Assembly (NCBI GenBank): GCA_964023205.1
Contig: OZ026833.1
Location: 39,525,137-39,589,136 of the forward strand
Direction of reading: 5' to 3'
Length of the DNA stretch: 64,000 bases
From: Lutraria lutraria
Taxonomy: Eukaryota > Mollusca > Bivalvia > Venerida > Mactridae
Position numbers and translations under genes: made by a program. Position 1 is the first letter of the stretch, and each line of letters starts with the position of its first letter. The notes under the pieces were generated by a model that was given only the letters and a program-made list of their open reading frames with translations, ran no database searches and was not told where the DNA came from. This document shows, in pieces, positions 44,479 to 61,452 of this stretch.

Positions 44479-44736
44479 AGTAGTAATGGACGGTACCCTG
44501 GGACCATTTGCACCCATTTTGGTCCCCAAAGTAAACAAAATTGTGACAAATTAGGACAAATTGGAAATCAATGTTGTACCCCAAAATAGTATGAATTGAA
44601 TTTTAGGAATGTTCTGGGACCATTGTTTTGTGTGTGTAATAGACTAAATATTTATTTGAGACAATGAGAGAATTTTCTTTCGAAAAGACATGGTGGCCCT
44701 GAAAAGGGCCGTTGGTGGTCCTGAAAAGGACCGTTG
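44479..44736 (+). repeat. E2 left terminal inverted repeat (258 bp)
   Basis: Reverse-complement match to 61389-61646 over the full length with no difference seen by eye. The inner end contains two histone-type stem-loops and the purine-rich element, so the repeat also supplies the 3' end of the outward-reading gene. Confidence 0.92.
44673..44732 (-). terminator. Tandem histone-type stem-loops plus downstream element (E2 left)
   Basis: In the gene's sense: GGTCCT-TTTC-AGGACC (44732-44717), GGCCCT-TTTC-AGGGCC (44710-44695), then GAAAGAAAA (44681-44673). First stem begins 28 nt after the stop at 44760. The third base pair differs between the two stems (T-A versus C-G) and pairing is kept in both. 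Confidence 0.85.
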
Positions 44737-44759
44737 ATAGTTTTTTTTAAACTTTTAAA

Positions 44760-45236
44760 CTATGCTGACTGATTTGGTTGGGTACATAGTTCGCATTGGC
44801 AGTCTGGTGGGGGATAGCAGAGCCTGCATGTTGGATCCCCACAGGACCATTCCTGTTCTGGTACTGGTGGTTGTTCCGTGTACTCAACTTGAGCGGTAGT
44901 GATGATACGCCAATGCTCTTCTTCTTGTTGTTGTTCCCGTTGTCTATTCGCCGTTCGTTCCCGAGCATCTCGCTGCCTTTCTCTGACTTGATCTCGAAAT
45001 TGCTCTCGCATTTGAGATAATTCTTCTCTATGATGAAATCGATTGGATTCAATGGTATTCAAAGTCTCACCAATGGTTTGAAGATCACGTTCCCTTTTTC
45101 TAACAATGCTAGCCGCTAAACGACTGATTGAACGCCATACCCTGCTCTGTTTTTCAGTCAGTTGTTTTGCTGTTTTGAGTTCATTGAATAAAGCCTCCAT
45201 CTTGAGTGTTTGAGTTCTCAGAATGAAATTAGGCAT
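44760..45236 (-). CDS. Terminal coiled-coil/Cys-rich protein of E2 (158 aa)
   Basis: Homologue of the E1 gene at 7879-8343. The frame can start at ATG 45290 but similarity between copies begins at ATG 45236 (MPNFILRTQTLK), which I prefer. E2 keeps a short MREQ insertion absent from E1. Arg/Glu/Gln coiled coil followed by Cys pairs (CGDPTCRLCYPPPDCQCELC). The tail C-x2-C spacing suggests a small zinc site. The mRNA should end at the stem-loops in the terminal repeat. Function unknown; the zinc site plus coiled coil would fit a nucleic-acid or protein-binding accessory factor. Confidence 0.7.
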   Translation of the reverse strand: MPNFILRTQTLKMEALFNELKTAKQLTEKQSRVWRSISRLAASIVRKRERDLQTIGETLNTIESNRFHHREELSQMREQFRDQVRERQRDARERTANRQREQQQEEEHWRIITTAQVEYTEQPPVPEQEWSCGDPTCRLCYPPPDCQCELCTQPNQSA

Positions 45237-45276
45237 TGTAAGACGGAGTATTGTATTACGCCGCCCACTCTCGTGG

Positions 45277-45329
45277 TTGGATGACGTCATATTGCTTGGA
45301 TGACGTCACCCTAGGGTTGGATGGCGTCA
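45277..45329 (-). promoter_or_regulatory. Three tandem CRE-like sites (E2)
   Basis: TTGGATGACGTCA at 45277 and 45296 and TTGGATGGCGTCA at 45317 (plus-strand view), equal to the E1 array. Conserved number and spacing between diverged copies supports function. Confidence 0.55.
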
Positions 45330-45416
45330 CGCGCCGATGTACCGCACAGACATGTGCTTGATTTTTATGAACTTAGAAAAAAGACAACAGACGCCTAGTT
45401 TCAGTTTTTCTAAACT

Positions 45417-45422
45417 TTTATT
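45417..45422 (-). terminator. Poly(A) signal after the E2 protease gene
   Basis: AATAAA on the minus strand, 60 nt after the protease stop; same position as in E1. Confidence 0.6.
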
Positions 45423-45481
45423 TTGTAACAAGTAACAAGAAACTACATGAAACATTTTAATAACAGTAACATTGTTTACAT

Positions 45482-46072
45482 TTAATGATCACCATAAAGA
45501 GTTGTATTTCTATGTATGATACTATGATACAAACGGTTGTGACCTTCTGGTCTAGAGTTACGTTGAGCACAACACTTTTGTCCACACTTGTTCACATATT
45601 GAGCATGCATGTAATAAGTACCATAATATTGATGAAACCAATGCGTCACATAAGTGTCATTTTTTCCATACATGTCCGGTTTGAATCGGGTAAACAGTAT
45701 CTGGTTCAAGTCACATTCACGTGAGATAAAATCCAAAGCGAATAGACAATACACACCACACACCGGTAACATATCGCCTTGTATTATCATGGCATTCCAC
45801 AGATAAGTTTTGTTGGCATGTTTTTTCACAAAGGTTAGAATCTCTTCGAAAGGAGGTAATCCGTAGGAATCAAAGTACACTGCTTTATTGTCTTTTAAAT
45901 AAAGAGCCACCCAGTGTTCTCCAGGTTGATTCCCGTTATGGGTATTCACAATATAGGCTTTCACGTCATGCGGTTTCTCTGAAGGTAATTGATCTTTGGC
46001 ACAAACACGAGCATGTAGTGGTTTTAATAACGGTGAATGATCTAATAGGTATTGTAGTTCATTCGTCTCCAT
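45482..46072 (-). CDS. Adenain-like cysteine protease of E2 (196 aa)
   Basis: Same catalytic residues as in E1: His in GEHW, Asp in YFDSYG, Gln in IQGD, Cys in PVCGVYC. Start chosen at METNEL (46072); the longer frame from 46108 overlaps the upstream gene by 50 nt. A handful of substitutions relative to E1 (for example RARV to HARV near residue 20), none at catalytic positions, so it should be active in maturation. Confidence 0.92.
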   Translation of the reverse strand: METNELQYLLDHSPLLKPLHARVCAKDQLPSEKPHDVKAYIVNTHNGNQPGEHWVALYLKDNKAVYFDSYGLPPFEEILTFVKKHANKTYLWNAMIIQGDMLPVCGVYCLFALDFISRECDLNQILFTRFKPDMYGKNDTYVTHWFHQYYGTYYMHAQYVNKCGQKCCAQRNSRPEGHNRLYHSIIHRNTTLYGDH

Positions 46073-46523
46073 AATGCCAATTTCTGTTGACACGTTCAGC
46101 CCAAACACTGATCCATTGATCTATGAACTGATTCTGAGTGAGTTCTTCTTTAAATTGAATCCATAATCGACACGCGTCTCCTTTTTCACTATCGGTCAAG
46201 GTCACTAATTCAGGATACCACTTTTCCATGACCTTGAACACGTCCAAACGTTGAATCGCTTTTTGAATGTAAAGTTCTGTCCACTCTTCCGTATTCGTGT
46301 ATAAGCAGAGTACATGTTGTACTTGACTAGGATGATTCACTCGACAACCATAACAGTCTTTATGCACTTGATTATAAATTAAAGATTGGAGTGCTTCTGT
46401 GACGTGATGATTCAAGCACTCTTGTAAAAAGTCCGTCTTTGAACTTGTACAACAAGGATACGCCAATAACTTCATTTCGTAATCTTGTCCTTTTTCCAGG
46501 TGTTCAATATCCATGTCTTCCAT
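46059..46523 (-). CDS. Conserved Polinton protein of unknown function, E2 copy (154 aa)
   Basis: Almost identical to the E1 protein at 6565-7029 (one Arg/Lys change near residue 30 seen). Contains YPCC and CYGCRVNHPSQVQH. Such strong conservation in a protein without a known domain, placed between capsid and protease, points to purifying selection on a virion or maturation factor. Confidence 0.7.
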   Translation of the reverse strand: MEDMDIEHLEKGQDYEMKLLAYPCCTSSKTDFLQECLNHHVTEALQSLIYNQVHKDCYGCRVNHPSQVQHVLCLYTNTEEWTELYIQKAIQRLDVFKVMEKWYPELVTLTDSEKGDACRLWIQFKEELTQNQFIDQWISVWAERVNRNWHYGDE

Positions 46524-46524
46524 C

Positions 46525-47823
46525 TTAATAATCTAGAAGCACTTCTCTGAATTGATTGATTTCAATTTGATTGTCGTATTCCGCAAATACAATCACGTTG
46601 ATGGCTTGTTCAAGTGCTGTTCCAAAGTGAAATTCCAATCTCAGATTGCCCGTTTTTATAGGATGGAGTTGACCTTCCTCGCAACCTTGATCTGCTGTCA
46701 AGTCCAACCCCCAGAGTGTGTATCCGAACCGATAATCAGTCATGCTCAATCCAAATGAACGATTGAGCCCAAGAGATCCTGTCGCTTGATAAAGTGACAT
46801 GTAGGATCTTAGAACTTCTGACGTTTGAAAATTGGGTTGAAACGCTTTGTTATGAATACTTTTTCCGTCAATGCTGACTTCCAGATGATTCAGTGTAAAA
46901 TGACGGAAATCAAAGGGGTTGGTAGCCATGTCTCCATTCATGTCTCCATTTCTTACCATACCGATGATAAGCCGTTTTGGCAATTGACCTTGAAATAAAT
47001 GATCTTCAATCTTGGATCGTTGACCGTTAGGAATCGTAAATGTTTTTACTTCAGTTCGTCGGATGGGGATTTTCATGTTATGTTGAGCAATCTGTTGATT
47101 GAGTTGATTGGCTACCACTGGCAGTAAATCTACTGTTCTTACATTGAATCCTGCTTCTAGAAACTTGATTTTGCCCGGTGCGGCACCCATGAGACAGAAT
47201 TGGGGTGACGCTTTGTTTAGCCTTAAGCGTATTTCCATACCATTGGGTAAATATTTATCTTGCATCATCAGATCCAAATGAAGTCGTCCACATAGTTCCA
47301 CCACACGACTTTGATGGACACGAGCACGCCTCTCAATATAGCCCAGGTTAGCCCCGTCATGTACGTGGGTGTTCATATGACCAGGGGTGTCTTCAGCCCA
47401 TAACTCTAACGCCTGAAGCTGAGTGTCTTTACAGCTTGAGGTGAAGGAGAGTAAATTTTCTATGTATGCCCGATAGGCATACGTGTCCGCATTGCTGGTG
47501 ATCAGTTTATTATTCAGGTACACATCAATGCTTGAGAACATGCTGTGAAAGAAATTGTTGACGGTAGCAATTTCACTGTCAACTGCTAGGTCTGTACCAT
47601 CTGCCTGTATAATTTTGAGTTTTAGGTACAGGTAAGATTGATTCAGATCAGTCCATTTTTCTGTCTGTGCAGGAATCACAAATTCAATCGGAGCATTATT
47701 GTCCAGGGCAGAAATGGGATAATGCTCAGTCCATTGACCTTCTTGCATGGCTGTCATAGTAGGTGGCACAACAGACACATCCAACTCTGTCTTACTACAT
47801 TCACAGGAACCGTGTTGCATCAT
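46525..47823 (-). CDS. Major capsid protein of E2 (432 aa)
   Basis: Same length and frame as the E1 capsid protein. Differences are scattered (for example ETGEVLRS to QTSEVLRS, NDYRNGYT to TDYRFGYT) and conservative for fold. Ends 1 nt before the next gene and begins 2 nt after the basic protein. Both copies being open over 1.3 kb suggests that virion production has been selected, not only transposition. Confidence 0.9.
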   Translation of the reverse strand: MMQHGSCECSKTELDVSVVPPTMTAMQEGQWTEHYPISALDNNAPIEFVIPAQTEKWTDLNQSYLYLKLKIIQADGTDLAVDSEIATVNNFFHSMFSSIDVYLNNKLITSNADTYAYRAYIENLLSFTSSCKDTQLQALELWAEDTPGHMNTHVHDGANLGYIERRARVHQSRVVELCGRLHLDLMMQDKYLPNGMEIRLRLNKASPQFCLMGAAPGKIKFLEAGFNVRTVDLLPVVANQLNQQIAQHNMKIPIRRTEVKTFTIPNGQRSKIEDHLFQGQLPKRLIIGMVRNGDMNGDMATNPFDFRHFTLNHLEVSIDGKSIHNKAFQPNFQTSEVLRSYMSLYQATGSLGLNRSFGLSMTDYRFGYTLWGLDLTADQGCEEGQLHPIKTGNLRLEFHFGTALEQAINVIVFAEYDNQIEINQFREVLLDY

Positions 47824-47825
47824 GA

Positions 47826-48191
47826 TTAATCGAAAATATCAAGAGGTCTGGCCTGCTTAACTCGGCGATGATGAAGTTTCGAATGAGGTCTTTTCTTGAC
47901 TGGTTTGCTCTTTATACGTCTTTTAGGGCTGGCCACAGCACGTAACAAGGATTCACCCACATCTTTTAATACAGAGGCTCCACGTTTTCGTATTACTTGT
48001 TTAGTGTTTGATCCTGTCAAGATATCATTGATAGCGGCTCTTCCTTGCTGGAGTCCTTCTTTTTTCAAGGTGTGAACTCCAGATTTCACAAATGGATTCA
48101 GTAAAGGCATAATTCTTTTCATGGCTTTCTTAAACATGGATCCAAGTCCGTGTCCATATTGCCGAGGTTGGCCTTGGTAAGTAGGTATCAT
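47826..48191 (-). CDS. Basic Gly-rich-start virion protein, E2 copy (121 aa)
   Basis: Homologue of 4897-5262. GHGLGS motif, amphipathic helix, Lys/Arg-rich tail. Starts at an ATGA overlap with the penton-like gene. Changes from E1 are mostly conservative (IIPLL to IMPLL, AAIKD to AAIND). Confidence 0.65.
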   Translation of the reverse strand: MIPTYQGQPRQYGHGLGSMFKKAMKRIMPLLNPFVKSGVHTLKKEGLQQGRAAINDILTGSNTKQVIRKRGASVLKDVGESLLRAVASPKRRIKSKPVKKRPHSKLHHRRVKQARPLDIFD

Positions 48192-49030
48192 TGTCTTTGA
48201 CGTAGGTGTAGTTTCACCATAGACTTCCCATGAATAAACTGAATAGACTGACCAGTGTCACCCCTTATATGGATAGTGATGGTGTCAAAGTCGGCTTTAG
48301 CCAGTGGTACATAGTGTAAATTCAAGAACTCGAAATGAATATGGGGGTTAGTTCCTGCTTTCGTTCTCGGATCAAATGGAGCTACACGTAAGATGGGGGC
48401 TTCTATGTTTCCCAAATAGGTATAAGACGCGAGGTCAGAATAAACAAACAAATGATTATGACCCATGTTAATATCTACGCCATGAGGAAACGGATCTGGA
48501 GTGTCTTTAAAAAAGATGGTAGAAGAACTATCAGGGGCTCCACCCAGTTTAATAAACATGTGAGGATGAAACTGAATGCCTAGTTGATCCGAACTGTCCA
48601 GTTTTGCGCGTTTACTTTGTCCTGAAAAACCCATGGTAAATCGAAGGCCTTTCTGTCTAAATATTTTACCTAATTGATCTTTTACGGTAAAGTCAATCGT
48701 CTCGATCAAATGTTGGGGTGTGACATAAGTTCCTATAGAAATACAAAGTCGTAAACCTTTTTCTTCTTTATTGGGGAGAGTACAATAGGTCTCAAAGTTT
48801 TCTAAGGCCTTACCCAGGACAGGATCGTGTGTGACAATGTAGAAATGTCGCTCTTCTTCAGTGACATTAATGACCTGACTAGGAACAATCATTTCCACTA
48901 AGGCAATTTCCCAATCTTGTTTATTGAGATGGATGGGTTTTGCCAGTTTGGTACGAAAACAACATTGCGTATTGTCTTGGAATAAATCCATAGAGCTATC
49001 ACTCATGAGTGTGATGTAAAACGAACTCAT
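48188..49030 (-). CDS. Minor capsid (penton-like) protein of E2 (280 aa)
   Basis: Same length as in E1 with few substitutions (GVRLCIPVG to GLRLCISIG). Overlaps both neighbours by ATGA. Expected at capsid vertices. Confidence 0.82.
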   Translation of the reverse strand: MSSFYITLMSDSSMDLFQDNTQCCFRTKLAKPIHLNKQDWEIALVEMIVPSQVINVTEEERHFYIVTHDPVLGKALENFETYCTLPNKEEKGLRLCISIGTYVTPQHLIETIDFTVKDQLGKIFRQKGLRFTMGFSGQSKRAKLDSSDQLGIQFHPHMFIKLGGAPDSSSTIFFKDTPDPFPHGVDINMGHNHLFVYSDLASYTYLGNIEAPILRVAPFDPRTKAGTNPHIHFEFLNLHYVPLAKADFDTITIHIRGDTGQSIQFIHGKSMVKLHLRQRQ

Positions 49031-49272
49031 GTTGATTTAGGTTTATTGAATTTCAAGGAGGGATTCGGTAGAATATAACCTAGAGAAGTACTTAAAAGCA
49101 GAAGCCACAATTCTCGATCGGGTCGTTGAAAACACAAATTAAATAGCGATACGGTAATAATAATAAATACCACTACAATTTGTGACAAAAAAGTGACCTT
49201 ATTTTTGGGTTCACACAATTTGGTTTGCTCTGAGGCAGTCACTACCACACTGGCCGTATCAGTTTGAGACAT
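49027..49272 (-). CDS. Small two-helix membrane protein of E2 (81 aa)
   Basis: Start at MSQTDT (49272). Two hydrophobic segments as in E1, with FFAQIVVVF changed to FLSQIVVVF. A conserved AATAAA precedes the start, as in E1. Confidence 0.7.
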   Translation of the reverse strand: MSQTDTASVVVTASEQTKLCEPKNKVTFLSQIVVVFIIITVSLFNLCFQRPDRELWLLLLSTSLGYILPNPSLKFNKPKST

Positions 49273-49292
49273 GATGTATTTATTAACAAACT

Positions 49293-50366
49293 TCAAACGA
49301 CATGGGATTCGGGAATCCAACTGTCAAATTTCGAAGGATAGCCTTTCCAATGCACTTTAATTTCTCGTCTTCCGTCTACCTTACTCTGGCGATGTGCGAG
49401 CACTGATTCAATTTCATAGATAGCATCATCTTTTATAACCTGTACTTCAGAGAAATAAAACGAACCCAGTATGGGTTCTCCGTCTAAATAAGTTAATTTC
49501 ACAGTAGCAGGAGAGGTCTTTTTGACTTGGATCACTTTAAACAGTTCAGTGGTCCAGTTGGGTAGATAACCTTTATCAAATGTACGTTTTGTTTTATTGA
49601 TACGAACAATATCTCCCACATGAAGGGTCGTCGACGCTTTCTTTCTTGATTTTCCATACAAGGTCAAGGCCACTTGAGATTCGTTATTCTCATTCACGGA
49701 TACGGGTGCCATTTGTATACTACGATGAACACGATGATTATAGGCATGCACGAGATCAGGCAATACCTGAATATACCTTCGTGTTTTATGATGCGTAAAG
49801 TATTTCCACATGCGTGATTTTAATGTCCGTTGAAAACGTTCCACTATACTAGCCTTCGTTTCTGGGTTTTCAGTCGTAAAATAATGAATCCCTACTTTGT
49901 CTAAAAACTGTTGAAATCTTTGATTCTTGAATTCTGTTCCTTTATCGGTTTGCAACGCTTTAGGTTGTCTCGTTTTAAGAATAGAGCGAAACGCTTCCAC
50001 CAATGTGAGCCCCGTTTTATCCTTGAGGGGAACGACCCAAGCATATTTTGAAAACACGTCAATGACACACAACAAATATCGATAAGGGGTGTTGTACTGA
50101 GCCAAGGATTGCATGTCTGCCAAATCAGCTTGCCATTGATGATCAATACCACCCACAATTGTTTTCCGTCTCGAGAATGCCCTACGGATAGGTTTGTGCA
50201 GGGTATAGGTCTTTTGTCCCTTCAACCAGGATCGCACTTGACTTGGCGTAATGGATTTCAGTTGAGTTCGAGCTGCTGTAGTAAGACGTTCTACCCCACC
50301 AAAACCAGCCGGATGGTGGGGATCATAATAAATCTGATGTAACAGACTGTCTACCTTTTTGTTCAT
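49293..50366 (-). CDS. RVE-family integrase with chromodomain, E2 copy (357 aa)
   Basis: Catalytic D81, D141, E176 (counting from the ATG at 50366) and C-terminal chromodomain (YEIESVLAHR, HWKGYP, SWIPE) all present. Only scattered substitutions from E1 (IRRVFS to IRRAFS, LSDL to LPDL, TDLDG to TYLDG, final HLV to HVV). The element's clean 6-bp duplication shows that such an enzyme acted at this site. Confidence 0.93.
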   Translation of the reverse strand: MNKKVDSLLHQIYYDPHHPAGFGGVERLTTAARTQLKSITPSQVRSWLKGQKTYTLHKPIRRAFSRRKTIVGGIDHQWQADLADMQSLAQYNTPYRYLLCVIDVFSKYAWVVPLKDKTGLTLVEAFRSILKTRQPKALQTDKGTEFKNQRFQQFLDKVGIHYFTTENPETKASIVERFQRTLKSRMWKYFTHHKTRRYIQVLPDLVHAYNHRVHRSIQMAPVSVNENNESQVALTLYGKSRKKASTTLHVGDIVRINKTKRTFDKGYLPNWTTELFKVIQVKKTSPATVKLTYLDGEPILGSFYFSEVQVIKDDAIYEIESVLAHRQSKVDGRREIKVHWKGYPSKFDSWIPESHVV

Positions 50367-50371
50367 GTTGT

Positions 50372-51112
50372 CTAGTAGGCTTCCCACTTAGGTTCTGCTT
50401 TCATCTGTTTGACAGGTTTACTTATAGGTTCTGCTTTCATCCGTTTACTTATAGGTGAAGGAGGCTCAACAAAACTATCAAAGAATTCATCATCTTCCTC
50501 CGAATCGTCTGCTTTTTGCATCCATGACCATCTCCGTTTATTTCCTATCACTTCTTGTGGTACATTGACATCTCTTAGTCCACTAGAAAACTGTTCCCAT
50601 CCTCTAGGCTCCGACCCTTTTCTATGACGTATGACATCATTGACCAAATCAATAATGTTGGATCCTTGTATTGGTTTTCCATGGTATTCCAACATCCCAT
50701 GATCATTCCATGACATGTGGGGATGATTTTGTAGAAAGTGTAATAAAAGCTGAGTTTTTCGACGCATGTTAGTAGGAACACTTTCAAGAATCCGATCCGT
50801 CAATGTAGCAGGAGCCGCTTGTGCCCCTTGAGCAGCTGGAACAACCGGTGCAGCCGGTGCAACCGGTGCAGCCAGAGTAGCCGGTTCACGTGCTTTTTGA
50901 TGAGACAGTTGAAACTTTTGCAAGACTTGCCCATAGTGTTGTGCTTTTTCTGATTCAGACAACGATTCATTTTGTAATACGTCTCCCATTTGTTTCTGTA
51001 AATCGGATGTTTGACTGACTTGCGGGGGAGGAGGTAAACGTGGTCGTTGTTCTGTTTTCCATCGATTCATCTCTTCTAGCATTTTGAACGGGACGATAGC
51101 CATTTTCTTCAT
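50372..51112 (-). CDS. Pro/Ala-linker protein of unknown function, E2 copy (246 aa)
   Basis: Homologue of 1967-2716. The C-terminal ISKP repeat is shorter: E2 has SPISKRMKAEP followed by one full unit. This 3-residue difference is an in-frame deletion, which keeps the frame and the overlap with the small basic protein. The central conserved part is unchanged apart from point differences. Confidence 0.75.
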   Translation of the reverse strand: MKKMAIVPFKMLEEMNRWKTEQRPRLPPPPQVSQTSDLQKQMGDVLQNESLSESEKAQHYGQVLQKFQLSHQKAREPATLAAPVAPAAPVVPAAQGAQAAPATLTDRILESVPTNMRRKTQLLLHFLQNHPHMSWNDHGMLEYHGKPIQGSNIIDLVNDVIRHRKGSEPRGWEQFSSGLRDVNVPQEVIGNKRRWSWMQKADDSEEDDEFFDSFVEPPSPISKRMKAEPISKPVKQMKAEPKWEAY

Positions 51113-51480
51113 AGCTTTTTCACCAGTGTGGCAACACCTCCACTGAGTGCTCCTGCAGCAACAGCTTTAGCAATGATTGGAGCAAGAGCCAGTAATGGAA
51201 ATAATCCTCCTTTTTGATTCAACACACGTTTCTTTTTTTGAATGGATACTCTTTTATCTGCTAAAGTGCGGAGATGTTGACGCTTGGACTTCAACCTTTG
51301 CTTTTGAGAGGGGGATAAGGCAACATTGCCTTTTAAAACATTCTGACAGCATTCTGCCACACATTGAATCATTTCTTTAGATGCTCCATGTATCATCTTT
51401 TTTCTTAACCCATCTGGGGCTTGAGTTAAACCCAAAACCAGATGTCCGTATTTATGCAGGAGTGGTCTCTTTGGTGCCAT
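51109..51480 (-). CDS. Small basic protein with hydrophobic Gly/Ala end, E2 copy (123 aa)
   Basis: Equal in length to 1599-1970, with RRKM to KKKM-type and VSEC to VAEC changes. A TATA box (TATAAAAG, 51523-51516) overlaps the stop of the upstream gene, as in E1. Confidence 0.75.
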   Translation of the reverse strand: MAPKRPLLHKYGHLVLGLTQAPDGLRKKMIHGASKEMIQCVAECCQNVLKGNVALSPSQKQRLKSKRQHLRTLADKRVSIQKKKRVLNQKGGLFPLLALAPIIAKAVAAGALSGGVATLVKKL

Positions 51481-51518
51481 TATGTCAAATAATACCTGTT
51501 TTTACTTCTTCACAGCTT

Positions 51519-53378: not shown

Positions 53379-53419
53379 TGTATAACCAGATAAAACATGA
53401 TTGATGACAACATGAATGT

Positions 53420-53764: not shown

Positions 53765-54069
53765 AATATCAAACTGTTCCATTCTTGAATCGTGTGAATC
53801 ACTCTATCGTTACATACATAAGTATTCCAATCGTCTCGATGGATAGCTTTCAAGTCTAAGTGTGCACTGATCATAGCATCACGAATCATCTGTCTAAATA
53901 GTTCAAACGTGTGAGGGTTCAGAATCCACGCGCGAATGTCCTTGACCTTGACAAGGTCATCTTGTACAATACTGTATAACGTATCCGTATACAGCTCAAA
54001 ATCCAAAATGTAATATAAACTTATAAATCGTCTAGATGGTTTAACCATAATTGAATATTTCCTGAACAA
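53761..54069 (-). CDS. Unrecognised E2 protein (95-102 aa)
   Basis: Two possible starts, 54069 and 54048 (MVKPSRRF). Mixed helical sequence rich in Leu, Ile, Asp and Tyr (FISLYYILDFELYTDTLY). It overlaps the F-box-like gene upstream and the Cys-tail gene downstream, and reads as part of one translation series. No recognised domain. Confidence 0.55.
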   Translation of the reverse strand: MFRKYSIMVKPSRRFISLYYILDFELYTDTLYSIVQDDLVKVKDIRAWILNPHTFELFRQMIRDAMISAHLDLKAIHRDDWNTYVCNDRVIHTIQEWNSLIL

Positions 54070-54647: not shown

Positions 54648-54712
54648 GTCTTTATGAATAATGAATTTTAGATGACTTGTTCTAGGCCAAAAGGTATCCT
54701 AAAAGGTCAAGG

Positions 54713-57700
54713 TCAGTCATGTAGATAACCATAAGGCATAGTCATATGATTCTCGACCACAATACGTTTGGTATACACCGAACGAAATGTTTTGACTTGT
54801 TTCTCACTGGTCACGGTTCTGTCCTTATGACGTTTAATCCGAGAAGCATATTCAACTACGGTCGAATAATGATGTCTGTCTTTCACACAATCCACCATCG
54901 TATTGAAATTCACTTGTTGAGTAGCATTGTAGTCTAACGTAATGCCTTTCACTTTGCATTTTTGATGGAGTTCACCGTTTTCAATGTATTCATAGCCATA
55001 GTTCTTTGGACCTAAAGCGACATATCTCACAATACGACCCTTTGGTACCTCATCTGTCCATTTTCCCAATCGACTGGAGATAATAGGAACATTATAGCCA
55101 TCAGGGTCATGAATGTACATACAACTGTCTGTGTCAAAATACAATACTCTCTTTCCTAGAGGTTCAAGCACTTTGTACAGTTCTAATCGAGCATAAGCCG
55201 TCACAAATGAAGCCACCACAGGATTGGCTGATGAATGAGGGTCTGCTTTGTCCGATTCATCAGTATAATTCATTAACATGAATTCATCATGATCAAAACA
55301 CTCTGCATATTTCACAGACTTTTTAGGATCGTTCAGTATTCCGTAGAACTGGTCCAATCGATGAACATACTCTGTTTTAGGCAAGAGGTTGGTTTGAGCA
55401 TTTTTACCCCAGAGACAATTCAGCATGGTTTTGGCAAAAGCTCGTTTTCCTGGATTTTTCTCCACCTGTTGCAAACGAATTCCTTCTGCTTCAAAATAAT
55501 CCTGTTTAAATTTATCTTGACCCTCTTCCGTATCCACCCCTGGAGGATATCCACTAGCCTCTTGTTTCATTTTCAAGTATTTGTCAATATATTGCCGATA
55601 GACGTCCGTACTCCATTCATCCCAGTGCCATACATGATACACTTTTGATACTTGATAGCCTAAAGCAATAGCTTTAGCCAATTCAACATGAGTCCATGTG
55701 CCATACAAGAACCGTTCATACGATGAATGTGTACAATAATCCATCTCCTTCTCAGCACAGGTACGGCATAGCGTAAACACCATTTTACTATTACAGTGTA
55801 TGGGTAAGACAGGCATCCATAAATCTTGCGGGGGTAGAACACGGCATTTAATCAGTCCTTTGTATTTCTCAATATGCTGTTGATCAATTTGTTCTTGACT
55901 CATGATCACTGGATGACCTATCGGATAAGCCCTGTACTTTTTCACATACGGATAGAGAGAACAAATATCCACATATTTGATTTCTTGGTCGTTGTCTACT
56001 TCATGATACAGTCGGACGGCATTCGTACGACCTCCGAACAAAGCTTCCCTGGGTTGAATCGGGTCTTGACCATGATAGAATCGTTCCACTCTTGTCTTAT
56101 AGGCAGGATCCTTTTGACAACGCTGATCAAATTCACATTCCCACATGACCACAACAGGGTACCCCTGTTCTTTCAAAGTCTTCAGTCGTTTATACGTATC
56201 GTGATAGGCCTGTTGCATGCTTCTCAAAGTATATGGATTGATGGTACTTCGGTTAGGAAAACAGGTGGGGCACCCATGGTACCAACATCCCATGAATTCA
56301 TACACGGTGTTGGTCTCTTGACAATAGCCATCCACGTAATAAGGTCCAATTTTGACTTCGCCTTTGTTATTCAAGGCATGCCGAATATGTATCTCTTCGG
56401 TGACAGCCATCATTTGTAGCCAACGTATGCCTTTCATGGAATACCGGGTTTTATTGGGATACCCGGCATCAGAAATCACGGCTAAACTATGAGGTGGCAT
56501 GGAATTTTTGCGCCAGGCTTTGTTACACACTTGAGCTAACGTGGTAGCTTCAGTAAATGGATCTATTTGATCACTGTCCAATAATTGTTGACGAAATTCT
56601 CCACACCCGCGTCTTAAAATGTCCACATCCGATTGACAGTATTTCTCCATTTCCTTTTGAAAATCAAATACGTCACCTTTTCTTTCATTGTACCAGATTA
56701 AAAACTCTTCACGTCGCTCTGGTTTCATACTATCCGGTTTGTAAAAGTGTAGCGGCAAATAAGGTCCTACATAATCTTGATACGCCAAGGTGTTTGCATA
56801 GAATGGAAACCATCCTTTGGCTAACTCGCTCAGTCCAAATGTATTGGGAAAATAGGAGAGAGGCATACTCAGGAAACTGAGGGAGTCAATCATGCGTATT
56901 CCATGCACTCTCAATTGAATGATTTTACTACCATTCATAATCAACTGGGGTTTCGCCGTCCCCTGAGTGACCACATATCTAAGAATAAACTGAGCGTCAT
57001 AGCCTTGAGCATTGTGGGCTATCACTGTCGATCCTCGATGGGTAGGGAGGAATAGCCAAGTACAGAATTGTTGTAACGTATTTTCACCACGGAATGTCAT
57101 TTGTCTGGCTTCATTCACCTCTTCACAATACTCACATGGAGCTTTCACTGACTTACACATACAGTCACCACAAGCACGTTGAGCCACACAAAAATTAGGG
57201 ATATGTTCTCCAGAATCAAAACGACATTCAAAATCAAAAAAGATGAATGGTACTTCTGGTTGTTTTCTATCGGGTGGTTCATACGTTGGAATGTAACAGT
57301 CATGATCTGGTCCTACTATGGCTTTACAACACCTGCATTTCTTTGTCCCTGGGCAAACGTGATTCCGTTTCGTTCCAATCACCTTTTGCCCACATTTCTT
57401 ACAATTCCATACGGATTCACAAATGGTTTTACGTTGTTTTCCCGTTTTTGTTTTATGATTGTCAAAACATGCCTGACTCTGGAATAGGCGACGGCAATCC
57501 GGACATCTTATAGATTGTCCTGCTGGGCACAGGGTGTGAGCATAACACTGACAAATATGGCTACACTGGTGTCCTTCACGGTGATCATAACCGACATCAC
57601 ACCATTCACAATAATAACTCCACCCGAGAAATCCGGTAATGGATACGATACAGTCATAATGATTATCATGGTGAAAGATATGAATCACACGACTTTTTTC

Positions 57701-58273
57701 AATCATAGCAGGTGGTTTGAATAACAATTCACTTCCATAATGTTGTGGATGGATTTTAATCACATAGCCTGGATAGAGATAGTCCTGTAGTTTTTGGTAT
57801 TCTTCTATACCACACGACTGATCCGATGAAATACCCACTTGCTTTAATAATGCTTCAGCTTCGTATTTTTGAAGATTTTTCTTAGAGTGACGTATAAGAC
57901 CCCATCGTTTTTTCCATTCCGGGGTTTGATTTTCATGTACTTTGCACCGTCCTACCACAATCGATCTAGCTAAACACATAGAGTCCTTACTATTGTCAAT
58001 ACACACAACACTTGTCTTTGACTTCCGCATACTGGATAAGTTTGGTGCTTTAAACGTTTTCTTTCCGGATCCCTGTGGCATAGCAATATGCGTAATTTCC
58101 ATCTGTGCCGCCCCATCATGAATTTTAAATTGACGGTTACTCTGTGCCACACGTTCAATTTCATCCAATAATGTATCTCCACTAATACAAGATGCCCTAT
58201 TAAACGGAACATGTATCCCAAAGTCCAAATCAGGATGTAGAATAGATACTCGAACTCGATCATTCGACTTCAC
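54713..58273 (-). CDS. Protein-primed family B DNA polymerase, main open part
   Basis: Contains N-terminal Cys/His zinc-type clusters (residues ~220-330), exonuclease motifs FFDFE (~344), HNAQGYD and YCQSD, then polymerase motif A (DICSLYP, ~768), motif B (KTMLNCLWGKNAQ), motif C (YFDTDS, ~1045) and GPKNYGY. All catalytic residues are present. The open part begins after an in-frame TAG at 58292-58294; the first ATG-started part of the same frame lies upstream (58295-58504). Without readthrough, the usable start would be the GTG at 58273 or an internal ATG, losing conserved N-terminal sequence. It copies the element by protein priming in related viruses. Confidence 0.9.
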   Translation of the reverse strand: MKSNDRVRVSILHPDLDFGIHVPFNRASCISGDTLLDEIERVAQSNRQFKIHDGAAQMEITHIAMPQGSGKKTFKAPNLSSMRKSKTSVVCIDNSKDSMCLARSIVVGRCKVHENQTPEWKKRWGLIRHSKKNLQKYEAEALLKQVGISSDQSCGIEEYQKLQDYLYPGYVIKIHPQHYGSELLFKPPAMIEKSRVIHIFHHDNHYDCIVSITGFLGWSYYCEWCDVGYDHREGHQCSHICQCYAHTLCPAGQSIRCPDCRRLFQSQACFDNHKTKTGKQRKTICESVWNCKKCGQKVIGTKRNHVCPGTKKCRCCKAIVGPDHDCYIPTYEPPDRKQPEVPFIFFDFECRFDSGEHIPNFCVAQRACGDCMCKSVKAPCEYCEEVNEARQMTFRGENTLQQFCTWLFLPTHRGSTVIAHNAQGYDAQFILRYVVTQGTAKPQLIMNGSKIIQLRVHGIRMIDSLSFLSMPLSYFPNTFGLSELAKGWFPFYANTLAYQDYVGPYLPLHFYKPDSMKPERREEFLIWYNERKGDVFDFQKEMEKYCQSDVDILRRGCGEFRQQLLDSDQIDPFTEATTLAQVCNKAWRKNSMPPHSLAVISDAGYPNKTRYSMKGIRWLQMMAVTEEIHIRHALNNKGEVKIGPYYVDGYCQETNTVYEFMGCWYHGCPTCFPNRSTINPYTLRSMQQAYHDTYKRLKTLKEQGYPVVVMWECEFDQRCQKDPAYKTRVERFYHGQDPIQPREALFGGRTNAVRLYHEVDNDQEIKYVDICSLYPYVKKYRAYPIGHPVIMSQEQIDQQHIEKYKGLIKCRVLPPQDLWMPVLPIHCNSKMVFTLCRTCAEKEMDYCTHSSYERFLYGTWTHVELAKAIALGYQVSKVYHVWHWDEWSTDVYRQYIDKYLKMKQEASGYPPGVDTEEGQDKFKQDYFEAEGIRLQQVEKNPGKRAFAKTMLNCLWGKNAQTNLLPKTEYVHRLDQFYGILNDPKKSVKYAECFDHDEFMLMNYTDESDKADPHSSANPVVASFVTAYARLELYKVLEPLGKRVLYFDTDSCMYIHDPDGYNVPIISSRLGKWTDEVPKGRIVRYVALGPKNYGYEYIENGELHQKCKVKGITLDYNATQQVNFNTMVDCVKDRHHYSTVVEYASRIKRHKDRTVTSEKQVKTFRSVYTKRIVVENHMTMPYGYLHD

Positions 58274-58291
58274 TTCACATCTCTTGTAGAG

Positions 58292-58504
58292 CTAATCCAT
58301 CATATCATTAAACAAACTGTTTGTAAATTCAAACGATTGATTATACGGCTGAAATGTCACATCATATACTCTAGATTGAGTCTTGAATTTTCTTGACTTT
58401 CTTTCCATGCGTGACTGTATGTTATAATAGTCGCGCACAGGCTCAAACTTACTTCGTTTAGTTGGAGGTTCATCCTCACCACTAGTACTGTCGGTATCTG
58501 ACAT
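58292..58504 (-). CDS. N-terminal piece of the polymerase, ended by an in-frame TAG (70 aa)
   Basis: Starts at ATG 58504 (MSDTDSTSGEDEPPTKRSK, acidic then an NLS-like basic cluster), 30 nt after a TATA box; an upstream ATG at 58570 precedes that TATA box and is unlikely. It is in the same frame as the polymerase and its order of motifs parallels the N-terminus of the third-lineage fragment at 13999-15134. It could be a nonsense mutation, a programmed readthrough site, or a separate small protein. Confidence 0.6.
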   Translation of the reverse strand: MSDTDSTSGEDEPPTKRSKFEPVRDYYNIQSRMERKSRKFKTQSRVYDVTFQPYNQSFEFTNSLFNDMMD

Positions 58505-58613
58505 GATTATGATCTTAAAACTTCTCCGCCGTTTTTTATAGTTCGGGTTCAAGGTCACAACGCGTGACACTCTATAAAAGACGTACGCTCCGTCAGTTTT
58601 TTATCATTTCAAC
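58505..58613. promoter_or_regulatory. Divergent promoter: polymerase (-) and zinc-knuckle gene (+)
   Basis: TATA box on the minus strand at about 58534-58540 (TATAAAAAAC) and on the plus strand at 58572-58579 (CTATAAAAG). Each lies about 30-42 bp before its ATG (58504 and 58614). The TATA boxes are only ~33 bp apart, so the two early genes likely share one control region. Confidence 0.65.
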
Positions 58614-58964
58614 ATGAGCGATCCTAAAATGAACCAAGCTGAAGAGAACCGAGATCAAACTTTGATGTATTCATTAAAGAAGAAAATTAAAGAGCTTAAC
58701 AACTTAGCGGATCAGCTCTGTGGACAGAAAAATGTAACATGGGATCATATCAAGTGTTATCGTTGTGGAAAGAAAGGACATTATTCTACCAGCTGTACGG
58801 AACCCTTCAACAATGAATGCTTTTATTGTCATGAACAAGGACATTTCATCGCAGACTGTCCTAAGAAACAAGGTGAACAGGTCGATCTACAGGACGCAGA
58901 ACAGAGTAAGAAAAAACGTAAATACAAAAAGAATCCAACAAAAACTGTGAGTGACTTTGTGTAA
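58614..58964 (+). CDS. CCHC zinc-knuckle protein (116 aa)
   Basis: Two retroviral-type knuckles, C-x2-C-x4-H-x4-C: CYRCGKKGHYSTSC and CFYCHEQGHFIADC, preceded by a helical stretch (LKKKIKELNNLADQL) and followed by a basic tail. Such knuckles bind single-stranded nucleic acid. In a DNA element it could coat replication intermediates or RNA. The gene has a TATA box upstream and AATAAA at 59093, so its mRNA appears polyadenylated, in contrast to its neighbours. Confidence 0.85.
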   Translation: MSDPKMNQAEENRDQTLMYSLKKKIKELNNLADQLCGQKNVTWDHIKCYRCGKKGHYSTSCTEPFNNECFYCHEQGHFIADCPKKQGEQVDLQDAEQSKKKRKYKKNPTKTVSDFV

Positions 58965-58969
58965 TCCAG

Positions 58970-59098
58970 ACAATGTGTTGGACAATGTGTTGGACAATGT
59001 GTTGGACAATTGTGTATAGACTTAAATTGGAGACTAAGTGAGTTGTATTGTGTTGTACTTTGTTGTACTTTGTTACTTAGAATGTTTTTAAAAATAAA
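58970..59098 (+). terminator. 3' region of the zinc-knuckle gene with short repeats and AATAAA
   Basis: GGACAATGTGTT-type 12-bp repeats (three to four copies) and TGTTGTACTT repeats precede AATAAA at 59093-59098. Confidence 0.55.
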
Positions 59099-59163
59099 AT
59101 GATAGACAATGTAATATGCTTTTGTCTTTGCTTGAGATATAAAACGAATCTAACACATATGGT

Positions 59164-59179
59164 GGCCCTAATAAGGGCC
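59164..59179 (-). terminator. Single histone-type stem-loop, loop variant
   Basis: GGCCCT-TATT-AGGGCC in the sense of the MGNCLKS gene, 11 nt after its stop at 59190, with CCCAAC 5' and ACCA 3' flanks. The loop keeps U at positions 1 and 3. The purine-rich downstream element is weak here (CAAGCAAAGAC further away). Confidence 0.65.
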
Positions 59180-59189
59180 GTTGGGTAAT

Positions 59190-59420
59190 TCATTGCATTT
59201 CTGCAAGAAATAGGTATCGCCAATAGTTGGCTCTCAAATCCTCATCATAAAAGATGGCAAGGTCAGGGTATAAATTACCCATCTTGATATCCATCTTCAC
59301 CTCTACACATGCATCTTGGAATTCAGACAAGTCTGGGTACAAATTACCCATCTTGACCATCCAAACATCTTCTTGTAACTCATCAGGTTCATCAGAAGTA
59401 CTTTTCAAGCAGTTGCCCAT
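59190..59420 (-). CDS. Acylation-signal protein with two YPDL motifs (76 aa)
   Basis: N-terminus MGNCLKST fits the N-myristoylation signal (Gly2, Ser/Thr at 6-7) with an adjacent Cys for palmitoylation, so the protein should be membrane-anchored. It contains the direct repeat KMGNLYPDL at about residues 23-31 and 46-54. YPDL is the YPxL late-domain motif that binds ALIX and recruits ESCRT-III in retroviral budding. The rest is acidic with a WRYLFLAEMQ end. The gene diverges from the 59623 gene across a CCAAT-rich promoter and ends in a histone-type stem-loop. Membrane-budding role is inference. Confidence 0.7.
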   Translation of the reverse strand: MGNCLKSTSDEPDELQEDVWMVKMGNLYPDLSEFQDACVEVKMDIKMGNLYPDLAIFYDEDLRANYWRYLFLAEMQ

Positions 59421-59622
59421 GTTGAATCATGAAACATAAATGAGCTATGGAACATGAAAAAAAACACTGACCTAGAACAGACCAATGAAATGCCATTAAA
59501 ATACACCAATGAAATACCGTTAAAATGGACCAATGAAATACCGTTAAAAATGGACCAATCAGAGTCCTTGTATCAAAGTCAGTGAGTGACCTTGCCTTGA
59601 TCTAGTTTCATTCTGTATCAAG
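59421..59622. promoter_or_regulatory. Divergent promoter with four evenly spaced CCAAT boxes
   Basis: CCAAT at 59482, 59506, 59530 and 59555, spaced 24-25 bp by a tandem CCAATGAAAT(A/G)CC unit; the last one reads CCAATCAGAG, the NF-Y consensus. Divergent CCAAT-rich promoters are typical of replication-dependent histone pairs. No strong TATA box seen. Confidence 0.65.
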
Positions 59623-59949
59623 ATGTCACAGAGAACAGTCAATATTATCAAGAGAAAATATGCTGCCTTAGGGCGGTATATTGAACAACTGGAGATGCAA
59701 CTAGAAGAGCTGCGGCTGGAGGTGAAGACCCTAAGAGAAGGGAAGGAGAAGTTTGTAGAGGAGGTGGAGGTCTGCTCTGGGGAAGAGGACTGGGGGGATA
59801 CCCCTCAAGAATCAACCCCAGAGAACTGGGAAGATGAACTCACGGAGGTTCCGTCGAACCTGTACCAACCCACACCGGACCCCAAGGATGTCCAGAAATG
59901 GGACAAGTGGTGTCCCGCTTGTATGGGGAGATGCGGTCAACGCCATTAA
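59623..59949 (+). CDS. Coiled-coil/acidic protein with CxxC tail (108 aa)
   Basis: Residues ~10-45 form a heptad coiled coil (YIEQLEMQLEELRLEVKTLREG), residues ~46-80 are acidic and Pro/Ser/Thr-rich, and the C-terminus (WCPACMGRCGQRH) may bind zinc. ATG at 59623. The mRNA would end in two histone-type stem-loops 20 nt after the stop. No recognised family; size and layout are those of an accessory regulator. Confidence 0.7.
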   Translation: MSQRTVNIIKRKYAALGRYIEQLEMQLEELRLEVKTLREGKEKFVEEVEVCSGEEDWGDTPQESTPENWEDELTEVPSNLYQPTPDPKDVQKWDKWCPACMGRCGQRH

Positions 59950-59968
59950 TTCCCATACAAGCACCAAC

Positions 59969-60026
59969 GGTCCTTTTCAGGACCACCAACGGCCCTTTTC
60001 AGGGCCCCCATACAATTCAGAAAGAA
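59969..60026 (+). terminator. Tandem histone-type stem-loops plus downstream element (internal)
   Basis: GGTCCT-TTTC-AGGACC at 59969-59984 and GGCCCT-TTTC-AGGGCC at 59991-60006, then GAAAGAA at 60020-60026, 14 nt after the second stem. Same 22-nt step as at the element ends, although this copy is not in the terminal repeat. Confidence 0.85.
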
Positions 60027-60169
60027 TCACTCTCATATTGTCAATATTTACAGTCCTATCTGATAACACCAAATACAAATAGACGGTGTGAGGTAAGTTT
60101 TCTATAAACATTATAACATTTTTCCCTACAAATATAAGTGATAGTATGATGTGTACAATCATTTTCAAC

Positions 60170-60445
60170 AAATGTATTCAAAGTGCTGTGATTGTATATA
60201 TTAAGTGTACAGTATTCAAATTGCTGTGATAGTATATATTAAGTGTACAGTATTCAAATTGCTGTGATAGTATATATTAAGTGTACAGTGTTCAAATTGC
60301 TGTGATAGTATATATTAAGTGTACAGTGTTCAAATTGCTGTGATAGTATATATTAAGTGTACAGTGTTCAAATTGCTGTGATAGTATGATGTGTACAAAG
60401 TATTCCCACAAATGTATTCAAAGTGCTGTGATTGTATGATGTGTA
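60170..60445 (+). repeat. 38-bp tandem array in E2
   Basis: GTGTACAGT(A/G)TTCAAATTGC then TGTGATAGTATATATTAA repeats with exact 38-bp spacing (60205, 60243 and on), five to six good copies with diverged ends. It lies between two stem-loop genes. Possible replication or enhancer region; no function shown. Confidence 0.8.
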
Positions 60446-60467
60446 CAAAGCATATCTACAATATAAC

Positions 60468-60613
60468 CTTGAAGTGTCACAATTAACCTTGACGTGTCAA
60501 ACACTTGTTCAAAAAAAACTTGAAGTGTCACACTTATTCAAAAAAAACTTGAAGTGTCAAAAATAACCTTGACCTAATAGAACACTGGCGCGTGCAGGCA
60601 AAAAGTATAAATA
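60468..60613 (+). promoter_or_regulatory. Promoter of the terminal right gene: four CTTGA(A/C)GTGTCA motifs and TATA box
   Basis: CTTGAAGTGTCA at 60468, 60519 and 60548, CTTGACGTGTCA at 60488; TATAAATA at 60606-60613, 36-43 bp before the ATG at 60649. The repeated motif is likely a transcription-factor site. Confidence 0.6.
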
Positions 60614-60648
60614 CCCCCGACGCAGACACTATTTTTTCATTATCTAGC

Positions 60649-61326
60649 ATGGAGTCCTTCAACATGCCATACGATGTATTGAGAGAAGCACTAGAATCAT
60701 CTGAGTTGATAGACCCGAATGCGGGTATGCATTACAACCAGCCGAAGTACAACCAGCCAAAGTACGGTCAACTACAGTATAGTCAACCACAGTACAGCCA
60801 ATACAGTCAACCACTGTACAGCCTGCCTAAGTACAGTCAACAGTCCATGGTAGATGTACAACCCCCCATGGTAGATGTACAGCCGATACAACCCATGGTA
60901 GATGTACAACCCACTATGACGAATACACAGCCTATGGTAGATGTACAACCCACTATGACGAATACACAACCCCCTATGGCGAATACACAGCCCCCTATGG
61001 CGAAAACACAGTCTAATACAACGGGTGATGCAAAGCCTACAGCGGGATTGTCTGTTCTACAAGGTATCAGGGAAGAAATGGTACAGATGAATCAAGTCAT
61101 GCAAGAGATGGTCAGACTCATGAAAAATCAAGAAGTACGGTTTAAGCCACAAGAAATGATTGTACCTGTACAGTTTCTGTATGATTCAAAGAAACGAAAA
61201 CATGAGCATGAGAAAAAGAAACCGGAGCATGACAAAAAGAAACCGGAGATGACAGAAACGAAGAAACGAAAACATGATCTTGAGAAACAACCTCGGGGCA
61301 AGTATGGTAAAGAAATAAAGAAATGA
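60649..61326 (+). CDS. Tyr/Pro/Gln-repeat protein with Lys-rich tail (225 aa)
   Basis: Start at ATG 60649 (MESFNMPYDVL), downstream of the TATA box; the frame is also open from a GTG at 60592, which would lie upstream of the box. Low-complexity YNQPKY/YSQPQY repeats, then repeats of MVDVQP(P/T) and MTNTQP, then a helix (REEMVQMNQVMQEMVRLM) and a Lys/His/Glu tail (KKRKHEHEKKKPEHDKKKPE). The Tyr/Gln/Pro part is of a type prone to phase separation, with a nucleic-acid-binding tail. It ends in three histone-type stem-loops. Function unknown. Confidence 0.7.
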   Translation: MESFNMPYDVLREALESSELIDPNAGMHYNQPKYNQPKYGQLQYSQPQYSQYSQPLYSLPKYSQQSMVDVQPPMVDVQPIQPMVDVQPTMTNTQPMVDVQPTMTNTQPPMANTQPPMAKTQSNTTGDAKPTAGLSVLQGIREEMVQMNQVMQEMVRLMKNQEVRFKPQEMIVPVQFLYDSKKRKHEHEKKKPEHDKKKPEMTETKKRKHDLEKQPRGKYGKEIKK

Positions 61327-61363
61327 AGATCCGACTAACAGCTATGAAGAAACCACGACCAAC

Positions 61364-61452
61364 GGTACTTTTCAGGGCCACAAACCACCAACGGTCCTTT
61401 TCAGGACCACCAACGGCCCTTTTCAGGGCCACCATGTCTTTTCGAAAGAAAA
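61364..61452 (+). terminator. Three histone-type stem-loops plus downstream element (E2 right)
   Basis: 61364-61379 GGTACT-TTTC-AGGGCC (imperfect), 61393-61408 GGTCCT-TTTC-AGGACC, 61415-61430 GGCCCT-TTTC-AGGGCC, then GAAAGAAAA at 61444-61452. The last two stems and the element belong to the terminal inverted repeat and are identical to the left end. Confidence 0.85.

Follow-up and report, generated by a model that had tools for sequence, protein, structure and literature searches.

Four small accessory genes of a Polinton element (E2), lying in a 64 kb stretch of the Lutraria lutraria genome (the window), are followed by stem-loops whose identification as histone-type 3′-processing signals is strongly supported. 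We base this identification on the Rfam scores of the stem-loops, on a loop and a downstream-element register common to the host histone genes, on conservation of the stem-loop in copies of the element chosen irrespective of it, on purifying selection acting on the genes ahead, and on the presence of an SLBP gene in the host. The sequence-only reading of this DNA had proposed that the element hijacks the host histone 3′-processing pathway. Its first part, histone-type signals on Polinton genes, is upheld by this evidence; as to the second, we consider it probable that the pathway is used for the four accessory genes, whose transcripts would be cut by the SLBP/U7 machinery to give tail-less, S-phase mRNAs.

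E2 (Table 1) is bounded by terminal inverted repeats (TIRs) of 265 nt each (44479-44743 and 61382-61646; 99% alike in an inverted-repeat search), its tips read AGTAGT...ACTACT, and it is flanked by the 6-bp target-site duplication CGCGTC (44473-44478 and 61647-61652). Pfam searches revealed the Polinton hallmarks of a retrovirus-like integrase (PF00665, E 3.2e-12) with a chromodomain (PF00385), a family B DNA polymerase (PF03175, E 1.9e-38) and an A32-type ATPase (PF04665, E 3.9e-8), as well as a weak candidate for an adenovirus-type protease, under the Pfam cut-off (PF00770, E 0.055). The predicted major capsid protein has no Pfam domain and has 332 homologues, with bivalves among the named ones listed. 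With Polinton/Maverick elements and the related adintoviruses E2 thus has in common the rve integrase/chromodomain, a family B polymerase, an A32 ATPase, a predicted capsid-like gene, the AG...CT tips of its TIRs and the 6-bp duplication; what sets it apart are the histone-type 3′ ends of four small genes, of which no mention was found in the searches on these groups. The zinc-knuckle (CCHC) gene adjoins the stem-loop-bearing accessory genes, yet has no stem-loop itself.

Table 1. Features of E2 and of its truncated copy E1 (window coordinates)
Feature	Position	Strand	Evidence or remark
Polinton element E2	44479..61646	.	inverted repeat, tip and flank letters, gene content
Downstream element GAAAGAAAA, purine-rich, left TIR	44673..44681	-	starts at nt 14 past stem
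Stem-loop GGCCCTTTTCAGGGCC, left TIR, second	44695..44710	-	Rfam and strict scan
Stem-loop GGTCCTTTTCAGGACC, left TIR, first	44717..44732	-	strict and relaxed scans
acc-L, 176 aa, Cys-rich C-terminus	44760..45290	-	two stem-loops behind stop
Predicted major capsid gene, 432 aa	46525..47823	-	homologues; no stem-loop 300 nt downstream
Integrase with chromodomain	49293..50387	-	PF00665, PF00385; AATAAA past stop; no stem-loop 300 nt downstream
A32-type packaging ATPase	52681..53328	-	PF04665; no stem-loop 300 nt downstream
DNA polymerase B gene	54713..58273	-	PF03175; no stem-loop 300 nt downstream
Zinc-knuckle (CCHC) gene, 116 aa	58614..58964	+	PF00098; AATAAA past stop
Stem-loop GGCCCTTATTAGGGCC of acc-minus	59164..59179	-	strict scan
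acc-minus, 76 aa, begins MGNCLKS	59190..59420	-	stem-loop behind stop
acc108, 108 aa	59623..59949	+	ORF; two stem-loops behind stop
Stem-loop GGTCCTTTTCAGGACC, acc108 first	59969..59984	+	strict scan
Stem-loop GGCCCTTTTCAGGGCC, acc108 second	59991..60006	+	strict scan; Rfam 31.7 bits
Downstream element GAAAGAA of acc108	60020..60026	+	GAAAG from nt 14 past last stem
acc225, 225 aa, low-complexity, Lys-rich end	60649..61326	+	ORF; stem-loops behind stop
Degenerate stem-loop GGTACTTTTCAGGGCC, one mismatch	61364..61379	+	relaxed scan
Stem-loop GGTCCTTTTCAGGACC, right TIR, first	61393..61408	+	strict and relaxed scans
Stem-loop GGCCCTTTTCAGGGCC, right TIR, second	61415..61430	+	Rfam and strict scan
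Downstream element GAAAGAAAA, right TIR	61444..61452	+	starts at nt 14 past stem
Stem-loop GGTTCTTTTCAGGACC of E1, one G-U pair	8356..8371	+	pattern scans
Stem-loop GGCCCTTTTCAGGGCC of E1	8378..8393	+	Rfam and strict scan

When both strands of the window were scanned with the strict pattern GGYYYTTHTHARRRCC, nine exact matches were found against 0.02 expected from dinucleotide shuffles (largest shuffle, 1), which shows that the stem-loops reported behind the Polinton accessory genes are real; chance hairpins were rejected as the main reading. A relaxed scan (requiring 4 or more of the 6 pairs, and 12 or more of 16 letters as in GGCCCTTTTCAGGGCC) returned eight sense stem-loops in E2, all fully paired except the one at 61364, and two in E1; its other rows were palindromic stems on the opposite strand with the loop motif missing. 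The initial count of nine in E2 and two in E1 is therefore right for E1 and one too high for E2, making ten in total rather than eleven, and there may be a more diverged eleventh. With the Rfam covariance model Histone3 (RF00032, cut-off 34 bits), three sites scored above the cut-off at 35.8 bits each (8373-8419, 44669-44715 and 61410-61456), and those at 59986 and 59139 (31.0 bits for the latter) fell under it. The tandem stem-loop pairs fold as drawn, three of these pairs having z between -3.8 and -4.1; the degenerate stem-loop of acc225 is absent from the minimum-energy fold of its stretch.

Among the 19 E2 ORFs examined, only the four small genes carry sense-strand stem-loops downstream; none was found within 300 nt downstream of the other 15, the capsid, polymerase, integrase and ATPase genes among them. 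The first stem-loop starts 28 nt after the stop codon in acc-L, 11 in acc-minus, 20 in acc108, 38 in acc225 and 13 in E1. As first noticed, GAAAGAA is present at four of the five sites, acc-minus being the one without it (neither GAAAG nor AATAAA/ATTAAA was found in the 300 nt examined there), and the proposed spacing of about 14 nt past the last stem also holds, GAAAG starting at nt 14 in the TIR and acc108.

Comparison with the host's own histone 3′ ends, which the sequence-only reading had suggested, gave near-identical stem-loops and the same register. Host genes for H2A, H2B, H3 and H4 have GGCCCTTTTTAGGGCC at their ends, 28-30 nt past the stop, and an H1-like gene has GGTCCTTTTCAGGACC. 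The fully paired E2 stem-loops share 15-16 of their 16 letters with a host histone hairpin, the second stem-loop of one other copy (L079) is identical to the core-histone hairpin, and GAAAG at nt 14 is common to the TIR, acc108 and host H2A. Such identity would not be needed by an independent protein, which makes it highly improbable that the stem-loops are bound, instead of by SLBP, by an RNA-binding protein of the element (for example of CCHC type) that marks or packages element RNA, even with a zinc-knuckle protein of 116 aa encoded beside the genes concerned. Could a piece of histone DNA from the host, or a pseudogene of a histone, simply sit within the element? The 3′ ends are alike, and only they; Pfam detected no histone domain in the E2 proteins scanned, the four accessory proteins included, and both the flanks (CCAAC, ACCA) and the spacers are unlike those of host histone genes. 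This explanation is almost certainly wrong, and we rejected it on these grounds.

The histone-type reading places the E2 signals beside the metazoan replication-dependent histone mRNA 3′ ends (RF00032; SLBP/U7 pathway), with which they share the 6-bp stem, the 4-nt loop, the purine element at nt 14 and the short distance from stop to stem. They differ in that the genes encode non-histones, that tandem arrays of the E2/E1 hairpins occupy four of the five window sites and that some E2 hairpins sit in terminal inverted repeats. The host does have another non-histone case: a tandem gene (G000:C12:22.875-22.916 Mb, L061-L063) is followed, as in E2, by a histone-type hairpin 39-40 nt later and a purine run. 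Unlike E2, this multicopy gene has relatives in bivalves and is no mobile element, and its hairpin has one non-pairing position. The SLBP RNA-binding domain is encoded in two exons on host sequence C10 (PF15247, 60.9 and 34.5 bits). The best U7 candidate (L106) is weak, at 29.2 bits against an Rfam cut-off of 34, and its predicted pairing with the downstream elements did not exceed that of shuffled sequences (201/1000 for the TIR, 434/1000 for acc108 and 405/1000 for host H2A itself).

A capsid gene search of the host genome gave 97 scored copies, from which 20 other copies were picked by their capsid gene, irrespective of stem-loop. The strict stem-loop at the left end was kept in 19 of the 20, these copies being kin and the conservation counts thus non-independent events; in the remaining copy (L086) the left end is not recognisable, and no signal was found. 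The left-TIR block of stem-loops and downstream element has 5 variable columns out of 73 across the 19 copies and the window; the remainder of the TIR has 118 out of 175. Behind acc108 the stem-loop block has no variable column out of 65, against 56 of 100 just downstream, in an alignment of 11 rows (eight capsid-picked copies and the window, all free of stem-loop choice, and L071 and L073, which are not); one extra C in five of these rows shifts GAAAG to nt 15. One homologous stem pair occurs as C-G, U-G and U-A (L023, L011, L026), and in some copies one member of a tandem has decayed, for example the second stem-loop of acc108 in L068 and the second one in L066 and in L067.

These patterns bear on the idea that the hairpins work as DNA in the TIRs, forming cruciforms that would serve the priming of replication, the integrase or packaging, and have no more than a likeness to histone ends. 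Five of the eight E2 hairpins do lie in or beside the TIRs. However, those in the TIRs occupy the inner part, away from the tips, and the other three are found 1.6-2.5 kb inward of the right end behind two other genes (acc-minus and acc108), where they are exact in all eight copies sampled; moreover, a cruciform has no need of the conserved single-strand features (loop, 5′ CAAC, 3′ ACCA and the purines at nt 14). We thus rejected the TIR cruciform as the main reading, and regard it as very unlikely.

Little favours the ending of these transcripts at AATAAA, the outcome that the sequence-only reading had named as speaking against it. In the window's TIRs the hexamer lies 104 and 143 nt past the stops, beyond the signal, so that poly(A) use is possible there. 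At the left TIR it is present in 6 of 20 rows and absent in 14, and neither AATAAA nor ATTAAA, the two hexamers scanned, occurs within 300 nt of the internal stem-loops in nine sequences; a few other copies have hexamers within about 300 nt (L001, L003 and L026), and L073 has one at nt 287 past acc-minus. A histone 3′ end might have been captured once and carried along on mRNAs that are polyadenylated, SLBP binding being incidental or serving stability only. Drosophila SLBP mutants, according to PMC2781718, do shift histone genes to downstream poly(A) sites. However, the stem block hardly varies where the hexamer is mostly missing, and C. elegans histone genes, as described in PMC1924863, combine hairpin, downstream element and an AATAAA just downstream, as some element copies do, and still give mRNAs that end past the hairpin. 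Those ends belong to host genes and were mapped experimentally, whereas the ends in the element are predicted from sequence. On balance, capture with continued polyadenylation seems unlikely.

The four genes behind which the histone-type signals stand are under purifying selection (pN/pS 0.11-0.35): 0.29 for acc-L (15 intact ORFs from other copies and E1, the window's E2 ORF being left out), 0.35 for acc-minus (14 intact ORFs), 0.11 for acc108 (14) and 0.25 for acc225 (12). A protein search with acc-L gave two relatives, acc108 is predicted to have a long N-terminal helix, and acc-minus had no Pfam match over the cut-off. We think it likely that the transcripts of these genes are cleaved just past the stem by SLBP and the U7 snRNP of the host; the resulting mRNAs would carry no poly(A) tail, and both their synthesis and their stability would be largely limited to S phase. 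The element would then have two predicted classes of 3′ end: the virion, replication and CCHC genes without stem-loops, several of them followed by poly(A) hexamers, and the four small genes with histone-type ends. In the TIRs a single signal serves the two end genes, which face outward, and would keep transcription from entering host DNA. The fuller picture, to which we give about equal weight for and against, is of a virus-like DNA transposon with two classes of 3′ end that takes over histone 3′-processing and S-phase mRNA control for its accessory genes, so that tail-less mRNAs timed to replication arise in the germ line or embryo, the tandem stem-loops of its TIRs acting also as outer transcription boundaries. 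Our guess is that the four proteins serve as early regulators or as cell-cycle factors, needed at the time when the host's replication proteins can be drawn on.

Searches of IMG/VR gave no match to the stem-loop pattern, one unconfirmed stretch by capsid protein and no confirmed relative among 26 stretches by capsid alignment, and none of 10 GTDB contigs was confirmed as related by alignment; the capsid relatives outside the host genome are known as proteins only. No prior description of histone-type 3′ ends on Polinton genes was found in the literature searched. To our knowledge, hardly any genes apart from the replication-dependent histone genes are held to have such ends, and, if our reading is true, no mobile DNA element before E2 is known to us to use host histone 3′-processing. 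Poly(A)-selected RNA sequencing would in that case miss or under-count the accessory-gene transcripts. Retention of the histone signal by a selfish element, behind several genes of its own, would demonstrate that this pathway is open to borrowing, and the stem-loops of E2 offer natural tests of SLBP and U7 requirements, together with a simple hypothesis for how Polintons may time their gene expression to host DNA replication.

The Polinton E2 begins with AGTAGT and ends with ACTACT, has a CGCGTC target duplication at both sides, and encodes an integrase with a chromodomain, a B-family polymerase, an A32 ATPase and a capsid-like protein of 432 aa. Among the best 120 of 332 matches, the capsid protein has its closest named relatives in Mercenaria mercenaria (73%), followed by Saccostrea and Ostrea, which points to a bivalve as the probable host. 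A 375-aa ORF carries a lysine-rich, KPRKSPAKK-like repeat similar to the tails of histone H1 or to core proteins of viruses; a Pfam scan of it gave nothing over cut-off.

Coordinates of the elements, genes and repeats discussed (window positions unless a host contig is named)
Feature	Position	Size	Remarks
Polinton E2	44479-61646	17,168 bp	inverted repeats 265 nt, 99% alike
E1	1 to about 8554		truncated copy, orientation opposite to E2
375-aa ORF	51519-52646	375 aa	
acc-minus	59190-59420		
acc-minus/acc108 intergenic region	59421-59622		
Tandem repeat between acc108 and acc225	60136-60425	unit 38 bp	
Host non-histone tandem array	G000:C12:22875500-22916500	unit ~1.5 kb	L061, L062, L063
Host histone cluster	C6:24.99-25.10 Mb		

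A strict histone stem-loop pattern has nine matches in the window, where 0.02 would be expected. In sense orientation we counted two stem-loops in E1, as in the sequence-only reading, and eight in E2 rather than the nine reported there, which brings the total one lower. Three window sites scored over the Rfam cut-off for Histone3, the covariance model of the histone mRNA 3' stem-loop, and two slightly under it. Three tandem pairs are predicted to fold as drawn (z -3.8 to -4.1); the single hairpin of acc-minus has a folding z of -2.4, and a 91-nt stretch of the right terminal inverted repeat (TIR) one of -2.8, with its mismatched first hairpin unformed in the predicted fold. A stem-loop lies at most 100 nt past the stop in 4 of 19 E2 ORFs examined, namely the accessory genes acc-L (176 aa), acc-minus (76 aa), acc108 and acc225, and none was found within 300 nt of the other 15, including the neighbouring CCHC gene. 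AATAAA is present 3' of the protease-like gene, the integrase, a 120-aa ORF and the CCHC gene; neither AATAAA nor ATTAAA occurs within 300 nt after acc-minus and acc108.

Judged by their frames, the four accessory genes are real genes: pN/pS, taken from intact frames only, a choice favouring low values, was 0.11 for acc108 (pS 0.28, 14 frames), 0.35 for acc-minus (14 frames, selected by an MGNCLKS start), 0.29 for acc-L (15) and 0.25 for acc225 (12). None of the four proteins matched Pfam over cut-off. A single-sequence structure model of acc108 gave one confident helix, residues 3-51, and little beyond. The MGNCLKS N-terminus of acc-minus resembles an N-myristoylation/palmitoylation signal. 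The acc-minus and acc108 genes are divergent, and the short region between them holds three to four CCAAT boxes in all nine sequences compared, an arrangement that we take to recall divergent histone gene promoters.

We searched the host assembly (728.5 Mb, 71 contigs) for further copies. Histone3 gave 44 listed matches, 37 of them over cut-off, from 75 scored of 131,090 first-look candidates; 44 is a lower bound, because the host histone cluster is absent from it. Stem and flank sequence of the element itself were found in 39, many of which pair up, one on the minus and one on the plus strand at a spacing of about 17 kb, and thereby mark both ends of other copies; the remaining five lie within a host tandem gene on contig C12. 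Some copies fetched in this way have one tandem stem degraded (L066, L067, L068), and in a few a hexamer lies no more than about 300 nt away (L001, L003, L026, and L073 at nt 287 past acc-minus), but such copies are uninformative on stem-loop conservation because the stem-loop was how they were found. A capsid search, with 97 of 473 first-look candidates scored, found at least 97 copies, the window's own included, at 97-100% identity, 94 of the 97 without a stop. These near-identical, mostly open sequences point to a large recent expansion of the element in the host. A 95% identical capsid protein (P0001) is also present on a 13-kb contig of a public sequence set; this could be either host DNA or an extracellular form.

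Constraint on the signal was observed in copies picked by capsid. We read 20 of them, about every fifth of the 97, at the expected distance; 19 have at least one strict stem-loop at the left end, and in the other, L086, no left end can be recognised at the expected place. Across these 19 and the window, 5 of 73 columns vary from the first stem-loop to just beyond the purine-rich downstream element, versus 118 of 175 other TIR columns (Fisher p 5e-20, to be read as a ratio only, columns and copies not being independent). The AATAAA of the TIR is present in 6 of the 20 rows; L084, among the other 14, has a hexamer at nt 229. In eight right ends, drawn from the same 20 copies, all three internal stem-loops are exact, no AATAAA or ATTAAA lies within 300 nt of them, and seven of the eight have an open acc108 frame. 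In an acc108-anchored alignment of 11 rows, two of which (L071, L073) came from stem-loop matches, variable columns number 0/65 in the stem-loop/downstream block, 12/90 in the coding end and 56/100 in the next stretch; two further rows, short of upstream sequence, were dropped, and copies whose frame end misfit the anchor are uncounted. An extra C past the second acc108 stem in five of the 11 rows puts GAAAG at nt 15. A single homologous stem position reads C-G, U-G and U-A across L023, L011 and L026, which fits selection on pairing; exchange with the adjacent tandem stem could also be the source of these variants.

Comparison with the host's own histone 3' ends, proposed in the sequence-only reading, bore out the likeness. 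In the host cluster, H2A, H2B, H3 and H4 end in GGCCCTTTTTAGGGCC, 28-30 nt past the stop, and a gene whose Lys/Ala-rich end suggests H1 ends in GGTCCTTTTCAGGACC. The element has the H1-type hairpin plus the core type with one loop base altered; in copy L079 the core-type stem-loop is identical to the host's. A GAAAG starting at nt 14 past the stem is common to the TIR, acc108 and host H2A, whereas H3, H4, H2B and the H1-like gene differ at these positions. The flanks CCAAC and ACCA are the element's and those of the host histone genes differ, and we thus infer that the signal is not a recent copy of host histone genes.

The C12 array encodes a 109-aa protein that has relatives in bivalves, e.g. 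Mya and Pinctada, and matches no Pfam family over cut-off. A histone-type stem-loop with one mismatch, plus a purine run, lies 39-40 nt 3' of its stop, which makes it a possible case of a histone-type 3' end on a non-histone gene of the host.

The host encodes the SLBP RNA-binding domain in two coding exons on C10. The best U7 candidate, on C18, scored 29.2 bits, below the cut-off of 34 (E 0.07 for the genome); at a lax E of 10 the model also matched 12 of 14 control genomes, none over cut-off. Against shuffles, the 5' part of this candidate paired no better with the TIR (201/1000) and acc108 (434/1000), and somewhat better with acc-minus (12/1000) and host H2B (44/1000), but not host H2A (405/1000).

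A nearby AATAAA is no argument against histone-type ends, because C. elegans histone genes have AATAAA nearby, yet their mRNA ends follow the hairpin (PMC1924863), and in Drosophila loss of SLBP leads to use of downstream sites (PMC2781718). A literature search, covering mostly papers free of subscription, found, among the matches listed, nothing linking Polintons or adintoviruses with the histone stem-loop or histone mRNA; PMC11071296 notes that relatives of these viruses have histone-like proteins, and the word stem-loop is absent from it. The best reading of the element's stem-loops is processing by host SLBP and U7: SLBP would bind the stem-loop, the U7 complex would then cleave directly past the stem, and the products would be tail-less mRNAs under the S-phase control of histone mRNAs.
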